DNA of 64,000 nt from positions 1-64,000 of the forward strand of contig JAGATP010000041.1 of NCBI GenBank assembly GCA_017621155.1, read 5' to 3'. The notes under the pieces were generated by a model. That model worked only from the letters and a program-made list of their open reading frames with translations. It did not search any database and had not been told where the DNA came from. Both the position numbers and the translations under genes were made by a program. Every line of letters begins with the position of its first letter. Position 1 is the first letter of the stretch. The DNA is from Clostridia bacterium (GTDB taxonomy: Bacteria; Bacillota; Clostridia; Christensenellales; Borkfalkiaceae). This document shows, in pieces, positions 7,433 to 18,582 of the stretch.

Positions 7433-7460
7433 TTGACATTTGCGCGGATTGTGCTATAAT
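7433..7460 (+). promoter_or_regulatory. Perfect consensus promoter of the large RNA
   Basis: TTGACA (7433-7438), 16 bp, TATAAT (7455-7460), with an extended TGC. It is among the strongest-looking promoters in the window, yet no protein gene follows for 700 nt. Confidence 0.8.
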
Positions 7461-7466
7461 AAAGGC

Positions 7467-8047
7467 ACAAAAAGGAAATCGGTTCACAAAAATTGAAAGG
7501 GTTTTTCAAGAGAAGTGGTCGAGCTCCTGAAAAAGAGAAACCCTCCAAAGGGACGGCGAACGGAGGTAAAAGAAGTCCCGCATAAAATAACGGATAAGGA
7601 GAAAGTAAAGGGACAATGAAGGCTTGATTCCCTCCAACGAACGGCTGACGGAGGTAAAATAAGTTCGGTTGCAACGCACGAAAAATACGGAACAAGGAGT
7701 AGTCCGATGCAGAAGTAAGCGCTTATGCCCGATTCGAGAAAAACCGGAGAGGACGTGAGCAATGCAAAATGCAAAATCACCCGAATCAAGAAAATCCGAC
7801 GGAGAGACGGCAAAAAGAGATTTGTGTTGCCGTAAGAATGAAAAGGAAGAAAAAATCCGGAAGGGAAAGAAAGGAGGAGGGATCTTACAAACAATACAAT
7901 GCGAACAATAACGACGTCGGGAGTTGAATGGGATATCCGATCACGGGATGTGAAGGAAAAAGGGTATCGAGTGTAAGTGACAATTCCGGTAGGCGGAACT
8001 AAAATCGGTTGTATTTATCGGGAGGATCGGGAAAGATCCTCCTTTTC
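7467..8047 (+). ncRNA. Large structured non-coding RNA, about 580 nt, with two tandem pseudoknots
   Basis: The span lies between a perfect promoter and a strong terminator. It has no plausible plus-strand gene. Two copies of one motif occur at 7542-7579 and 7631-7667. Each has CCTCC, 2-3 A, a 5-mer B, a 7-nt GGC…AC, GGAGG, an 8-nt TAAAA-AA, then the complement of B. B/B' is GGGAC/GTCCC in copy 1 and CGAAC/GTTCG in copy 2, so the pairing is conserved while the sequence changes. Other helices: 7502-7508/7528-7534, GATTCG/CGAATC (7731/7782), ACGGCAA/TTGCCGT (7807/7827), GATATCC/GGGTATC (7932/7962) enclosing TCAC/GTGA, and TTCCG/CGGAA (7984/7994). It is not tmRNA, RNase P or SRP RNA by their hallmark sequences. 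Length and context would suit a large-RNA class such as ROOL, which I cannot verify. Confidence 0.7.
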
Positions 8048-8050
8048 TTT
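8021..8050 (+). terminator. Terminator of the large RNA
   Basis: GGAGGATC (8021-8028), loop GGGAAA, GATCCTCC (8035-8042), then TTTTCTTT. Confidence 0.9.
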
Positions 8051-18437: not shown

Positions 18438-18443
18438 ATTCCC

Positions 18444-18582
18444 TGTAAAAACAAATGCCGCAGAAAGTGTGTGTTCCTTGGAACTTGAAGGTCGCTCCGC
18501 ACACCGAGGTTTAAGCGATGAGAGGTTCTCTGTCCTTATGCCATGCGGTATAAGGCTTTTTTAATGCTAGAAGGAGGTTTCT
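18444..18582 (+). promoter_or_regulatory. Ribosomal protein L10 leader
   Basis: The 5' leader from the predicted start to rplJ contains the L10-leader-like segment CGCAGAAAGTGTGTGTTCC…GAACTTGAAGG…CACACCGAGGTT. It ends in a terminator hairpin at 18534-18562. Known L10 leaders bind the L10(L12)4 complex and shut down rplJL expression. Confidence 0.85.
18534..18562 (+). terminator. Attenuator of the L10 leader
   Basis: CCTTATGCC (18534-18542), loop ATGC, GGTATAAGG (18547-18555), then CTTTTTT, 20 nt before the rplJ start. Confidence 0.8.

Follow-up and report, generated by a model that had tools for sequence, protein, structure and literature searches.

Few large structured RNAs are known in bacteria, and almost all of them are without a mechanism. 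With OLE, ROOL and GOLLD (PMC12286853), the candidate RNA described here, which lies in a 64 kb stretch of DNA that we analysed as a whole (hereafter the window), shares its size class, its occurrence in Gram-positive anaerobes, an elaborate conserved structure, the lack of a long open reading frame (ORF) and an unknown biochemical role. However, its family has no Rfam match, a different structural core, a HEPN-like/CBS gene as a neighbour and modules that combine a mini-ORF with a pseudoknot.

In the AbiF/RCd22 systems, a structured RNA lies beside a toxic protein of the Abi_2/AbiD/F family with structural links to Cas13, and the RCd22 RNA, which carries repeated motifs, neutralises the toxic protein through direct binding (PMC12373285). 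The new family is alike in that, in lineages other than the window's genus, a structured RNA is encoded beside a protein, here from the HEPN-like/CBS gene, but its RNA lies downstream of that gene, is much larger and has no abiF motif, and there are no binding or toxicity data for it. The type III toxin-antitoxin RNAs ToxI and CptI (PMC5086642) are also built from tandem H-type pseudoknots of similar size, whereas the window units are non-contiguous and spaced by mini-ORFs, have no ToxN-type gene and are followed by a large extra 3' domain. Minigenes and two-codon ORFs (PMC8708949) likewise join a Shine-Dalgarno (SD) sequence to an extremely short ORF; those described in that work act in cis on the following gene, while the window copies stand in tandem within a noncoding RNA, each with a pseudoknot after it. 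Pseudoknots of the rpsO type (PMC3858243) are also positioned at a ribosome binding site, and they regulate a following ribosomal protein gene, but in the modules described here the knot comes after a stop codon, and the transcript holds no gene beyond it. To our knowledge, minimal ORFs arrayed in tandem, with a pseudoknot closing each of them, have no described precedent.

By analogy, AbiF/RCd22, the type III antitoxin pseudoknots and minigenes may work in comparable ways, although the abiF motif of the first and the hallmarks of the second are lacking. The abiF RNA motif of Rfam matched neither the window RNA nor its homologues; the AbiF/RCd22-like candidate, a putative RNase gene beside the RNA, is the HEPN-like/CBS gene, which adjoins the RNA in genera g11 and g10 and in a second family, f32, and not in the window's genus. 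Type III systems are built of 34-50-nt pseudoknots repeated without gaps, and this criterion is unmet, as the two window knots are 88-89 nt apart with a mini-ORF between them, and the gene downstream of the RNA encodes an ECF sigma factor, not a ToxN-family toxin. A genome-wide search for PF13958 (ToxN) found none, but no control gave a signal. Rfam 15 returned nothing at gathering threshold for the window RNA (three unrelated matches below threshold at E ≤ 10) and nothing above it for the homologue RNAs, with ROOL, GOLLD, OLE, raiA, tmRNA, RNase P, SRP and 6S included, and ARAGORN, searching for the tRNA-like domain and tag ORF of tmRNA, found none and a single tRNA-Arg in the window. The initial annotation had described a structured RNA of about 580 nt that is not tmRNA, RNase P or SRP RNA; this held, and the Rfam search extends the exclusion to ROOL, GOLLD, OLE and raiA. 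Elsewhere in the window (18440-18571, plus strand), a ribosomal protein L10 leader barely exceeded its Rfam threshold (44.1 vs 44 bits).

The RNA locus and its tandem pseudoknots

The features of the locus, all on the plus strand and numbered within the window, are as follows.

7433-7460, plus strand: extended -10 promoter (TTGACA 7433-7438, TGC 7452-7454, TATAAT 7455-7460; 16-nt spacer)
7467-8050, plus strand: large structured noncoding RNA (limits inferred, on the 5' side from the promoter and on the 3' side from the terminator; homologues)
7475-7507, plus strand: 5' hairpin region adjoining the conserved start ACAAAAAGGAA (alignment of five full copies in the genus)
7527-7538, plus strand: degenerate mini-ORF position of module 1, CTG AAA AAG AGA, no stop
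7542-7579, plus strand: pseudoknot 1 (PK1), stem 1 7542-7546/7562-7566, stem 2 7550-7554/7575-7579; CCTCC-AAA-GGGAC-GGCGAAC-GGAGG-TAAAAGAA-GTCCC
7596-7613, plus strand: purine-rich, SD-like stretch before mini-ORF 2 (AAGGAG 7596-7601, AAAGGGA 7607-7613)
7616-7627, plus strand: mini-ORF 2, ATG AAG GCT TGA (M-K-A-stop), its pattern conserved in 12/13 modules
7631-7667, plus strand: pseudoknot 2 (PK2), stem 1 7631-7635/7650-7654, stem 2 7638-7642/7663-7667; CCTCC-AA-CGAAC-GGCTGAC-GGAGG-TAAAATAA-GTTCG
7668-7891, plus strand: purine-rich middle, poorly conserved in sequence (genus alignment)
7892-8014, plus strand: conserved 3' domain (match of model R2, 94 bits; covariation)
7894-8014, plus strand: helices of the 3' domain, P1 7894-7899/8009-8014, P2 7920-7926/7981-7987, P3 7932-7938/7962-7968, P4 7941-7944/7950-7953
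7969-7977, plus strand: conserved GAGTGTAAG in the 3' domain
8020-8050, plus strand: intrinsic terminator-like hairpin and T-rich tail (hairpin itself 8020-8043)

The promoter hexamers match the consensus at all 12 positions, and the ORFs that cross the RNA are short and mechanical only. Folded as a whole, the RNA is only modestly better than shuffles (z -2.3). The positions of the promoter, both pseudoknots and the terminator given in the initial annotation held, while its view that the interval contains no plausible gene is corrected by the three-codon mini-ORF at 7616-7627, which it overlooked and which recurs in homologues. The expression strength that it named is only an inference from the promoter. 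How far the family extends, its 3' domain and paralogues, the mini-ORFs that precede the knots and the linkage to a HEPN-CBS gene were beyond its view. That the window encodes a structured RNA with its own transcription unit, belonging to a family of large RNAs, is very likely, although expression has not been shown.

We searched for pseudoknots with a 5-bp stem 1, a loop of 2-3, a 5-bp stem 2, a loop of 7 and a loop of 8, and only PK1 and PK2 fit this geometry on either strand of the 64 kb. Across 2000 dinucleotide shuffles of the 581 nt the mean was 0.001 such knots, and two were never reached. Selection on both stems had been claimed from covariation between two copies within one molecule, which is thin evidence; the claim held, as the pairing is kept in homologues, which now supply the covariation. 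In 12 aligned modules 98.3% of cells pair and three pairs are double-changed, including a stem 1 of CATCC/GGATG; the covariation score was reached by none of 500 shuffles, and pairing falls to about half when the knot partners are slid by one base. The loop sequences of the knots are conserved as well. Exact-pattern matches to the knots in contigs outside the genus were set aside as chance, because the upstream CCTCC strand is missing.

Mini-ORF modules and copies within the genus

Comparison of the window RNA with 61 related genomes by blastn gave matches confined to the genus, namely two more copies in its own genome, one on contig C54 and a partial one at the edge of contig C34, besides one copy in G001 and two in G002. 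Homologues thus occur in all three species of the genus examined, with paralogues at other loci, up to three RNA genes per genome, 2-3 tandem modules per RNA and 13 pseudoknot modules in total. All full copies share the promoter type and the start (G)ACAAAAA(G/A)GAA; each has 2-3 pseudoknots in tandem, then a purine-rich middle and the conserved 3' domain, and the 3' terminus of the genus copies seen is a hairpin. Copies adjacent to gerA are present in all three species, and the RNA was found in the gerA neighbourhood only in these; the window copy sits between ruvX/DUF1292 and the ECF sigma gene, and the G002 copy on C24 is near an acyltransferase gene. A palindromic element that resembles GCGGGATATAGATCCCGCACC recurs in several copies immediately downstream of the RNA on C54 (L004 2130-2780, G000 C54).

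A start codon, two sense codons and a stop directly precede the knot in 12/13 modules of the genus, the sole exception being window module 1 (CTG..AGA). Eleven of the starts are ATG and one is TTG, the stops are TAA, TGA or TAG, and 11 of the 12 mini-ORFs lie at one fixed offset, 14 nt before CCCTCC; the single indel (C54_1) falls between stop and knot. Shuffled upstream sequences gave at most 4/13 mini-ORFs in 20,000 sets. The inner codons vary while start and stop hardly do, and the last sense codon is often GCG. Taken by themselves, the stop codons gave only weak support in a column-shuffle test, which 66% of shuffles passed. Upstream of each mini-ORF is a purine stretch complementary to the anti-SD, at variable spacing, and the duplex of the 7596-7613 stretch with the anti-SD has an energy of -7.8 kcal/mol. 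The knot starts some 15 nt downstream of the first base of the AUG; from ribosome geometry, and without ribosome data, we infer that a ribosome initiating on the mini-ORF would have its leading edge at the knot. It is likely that the modules engage ribosomes, though this too is inferred and translation has not been shown. The modules were found only in the window's genus and are absent from every other RNA-bearing lineage checked.

The CCTCC strand of the knot may instead pair with an upstream GGAGG of the mini-ORF SD (modules of C34, G1, C54 and C24; seen in the L009 fold), and this alternative would make each module a possible two-state switch. A lone module also occurs at the contig edge in C34 (L009/L011, G000, 1-240), where two strong hairpins take the place of the 3' domain and a GH3 glycosidase gene comes after them; this module could be a partial copy or a cis-acting version.

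The wider RNA family and the HEPN-like/CBS gene

Two models were used beyond the genus: R2, made from the 3' domain of the window's genus (g1) with the window copy in its training set, and R3, built from g11. R2 gave weak matches in g11, at loci that share the promoter, the start and the 3' motif, and blastn with one g11 locus found matches in 34/40 g11 genomes. At E ≤ 1, R2 recovers the RNA at 22 of the 30 g11 loci, and R3 in turn matches two g1 copies at E 0.002-0.004, yet not the window copy itself; with these reciprocal matches, homology of the g1 copies with the g11 core is met independently of training. The window copy meets the family criteria of a TTGAC(A/T)-16-TGN-TATAAT promoter, a (G/C)ACAA start and a 3' domain of P1-P4, and under the strict pattern this promoter, with the same spacer, is present in 34/38 family loci. 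The RNAs are about 580-850 nt in size. R3 also located the RNA in three g10 genomes and in f32 (where the match at locus L175, cut by the contig end, is only putative), and independent genomes of at least four genera carry the RNA with covariation.

In an alignment of the g11 core (27 sequences), 96.7% of cells pair, 15/27 pairs are double-changed and the covariation was reached by 0/500 shuffles. RNAalifold independently predicts the same irregular 3'-domain stem and adds a helix, (G/A)AAAAG/CUUUU(C/U), with 11 double changes. A full-length fold of 29 g11 RNAs, for which there was no separate control, contains 102 pairs, of which 47 are both well preserved and double-changed. P3 reads TTTAACC/GGTTAAA in g11 vs GATATCC/GGGTATC in the window. 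The cross-genus alignment in which both-side changes were counted includes one spurious row, the R2 match L111, which was rejected as it lies within coding sequence. A pseudoknot of AAAAAGUG with CUUUU was dropped, because CUUUU(C/U) pairs with the upstream (G/A)AAAAG. A phage or plasmid origin was also considered and rejected, there being no blastn match and no R3 match in three viral contigs with the 17-nt core.

A class-wide R3 search returned no matches, but its filters were strict and its set held no positive genome. The genomes are drafts, mostly from metagenomes, and the strict filters of large scans lose weak matches; the true range of the family is likely to be wider than found. It appears to be previously uncatalogued in that it has no Rfam match, though candidate lists outside Rfam (e.g., PMC8040213) might hold parts of it. 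Two further places were seen: R3 matched a second site in G174 (L172, 38 bits) beside an Ig-like/lipoprotein gene, and the f32 RNA at L174 contains the motif CAGGAGTGTAATCGAATG three times in tandem, possibly a further internal repeat array.

In g11, g10 and f32 the RNA promoter follows the stop of a gene for a 244-246-aa protein, mostly within 50-150 nt. Its CBS pair scores above the Pfam cut-off, and an AF2 model (mean pLDDT 90) of the protein from the window genome matches AcuB and AMPK-gamma-like structures. The N-terminus is all-helical with an invariant L-R-N-A-I-V-H. The HEPN signature is R-X4-H, and the invariant RNAIVH fits it. HEPN Pfam models scored below their cut-offs, so that "HEPN-like" is a proposal that is possible and no more, and a fold search with the protein model listed CBS structures only and no HEPN.

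The RNA and the protein tend to be present together among the 61 relatives (Fisher test, 4.7e-5; not corrected for phylogeny, and leaving out an ileS-linked paralogue in G053). In the window's genus the gene persists elsewhere, not adjoining the RNA, and it was not found in G002, a genome 79% complete. In g12 (G013), downstream of the same protein gene, a promoter of this type precedes a purine-rich stretch. The protein tree groups the proteins of the window's genus and g12 as sister to the RNA-linked clade, with the ileS-linked paralogues outside. These second paralogues lie directly upstream of ileS, without a large RNA (L183, G012 C13; L182, G053). The g12 stretch (L181) runs for at least 800 nt with a long internal repeat (GGAACAAAGAGTAAGGTAAAG...), is cut by the contig end and has no convincing R3 match; it may be a highly divergent family member.

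Possible mechanisms

Our leading reading, to which we give a probability of only about 0.35, is inferred without expression, binding or ribosome data. In it, the large RNA would act in trans as the RNA part of a ribonucleoprotein (RNP) whose usual partner would be the HEPN-like/CBS protein; the CBS pair would serve as a sensor of adenine nucleotides, and the role of the RNA would be to hold, tune or present an RNase of the HEPN type. In the window's genus, each module would additionally allow initiation on the mini-ORF by a ribosome whose leading edge abuts the knot, and the RNA would thereby be loaded with ribosomes or report their availability. A trans-acting RNP with the HEPN-CBS protein is the most economical mechanism, because this gene is the only recurrent neighbour of the RNA across two families. 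Against the combined mechanism, the window's genus does not keep the gene beside the RNA, the HEPN assignment falls short of the Pfam cut-offs and has no support from the fold search, gene order may have been inherited with no functional meaning, the co-occurrence ignores phylogeny, window module 1 has no mini-ORF and the SD spacing varies. A bolder version, in our view improbable, is a new RNP in which tandem units of AUG, two codons, stop and pseudoknot would dock initiating ribosomes and couple their availability to an adenine-nucleotide-sensing HEPN-CBS ribonuclease.

The strongest rival, which remains possible, is an ornate large RNA working alone or with another protein (in assembly, as a scaffold or as a ribozyme), as for OLE, ROOL and GOLLD, with the HEPN-CBS neighbourhood an inherited gene order and the 5' modules a lineage-specific decoration. 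Its size, structure and own promoter, the lack of a linked gene in the window's genus and the RNA-only complexes formed by known ornate RNAs (PMC12286853) speak for it, but the linkage holds across two families and presence and absence coincide in relatives. We consider it unlikely that the RNA of the window's genus is instead a ribosome trap independent of HEPN-CBS, in which the mini-ORF would capture a ribosome and the knot slow it, or a short peptidyl-tRNA drop off, buffering ribosomes or certain tRNAs. Start and stop are kept while inner codons vary, the knot stands at the expected ribosome edge, there are 2-3 tandem copies and up to three genes per genome, and minigenes can deplete tRNA (PMC8708949); however, the modules are missing in all other lineages with the RNA and therefore cannot be the family's basic function, and translation is not shown.

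Less likely still is a role for the knots in binding a protein, like that of type III antitoxin RNAs, with the mini-ORF pattern merely conserved primary sequence. Tandem H-type knots of 36-38 nt do resemble the ToxI units of 34-36 nt (PMC5086642), the loop sequences are conserved and stop-codon exchange alone is only mild evidence, but no ToxN-type gene is nearby or was found in the genome (with the control silent), the units are about 75-115 nt apart and non-contiguous, and the mini-ORFs retain both start and stop although their inner codons vary. It is very unlikely that the RNA regulates the downstream gene in cis, as a leader or attenuator; an ECF sigma gene does follow the window copy and a GH3 gene the partial copy on C34, but a terminator closes the RNA, different loci have different genes downstream and conservation is highest in the 3' domain. 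Chance or an artefact of assembly is all but excluded, since, although all genomes are draft assemblies, covariation is found in independent genomes of at least four genera and the shuffle controls exclude chance.

Under the combined mechanism, the ribosome-docking modules would be an addition made by the window's genus to a trans-acting RNA. The function of this RNA family is directly testable, since it offers dozens of homologues with clear covariation, a candidate partner protein and, in one genus, repeated modules that face the ribosome.
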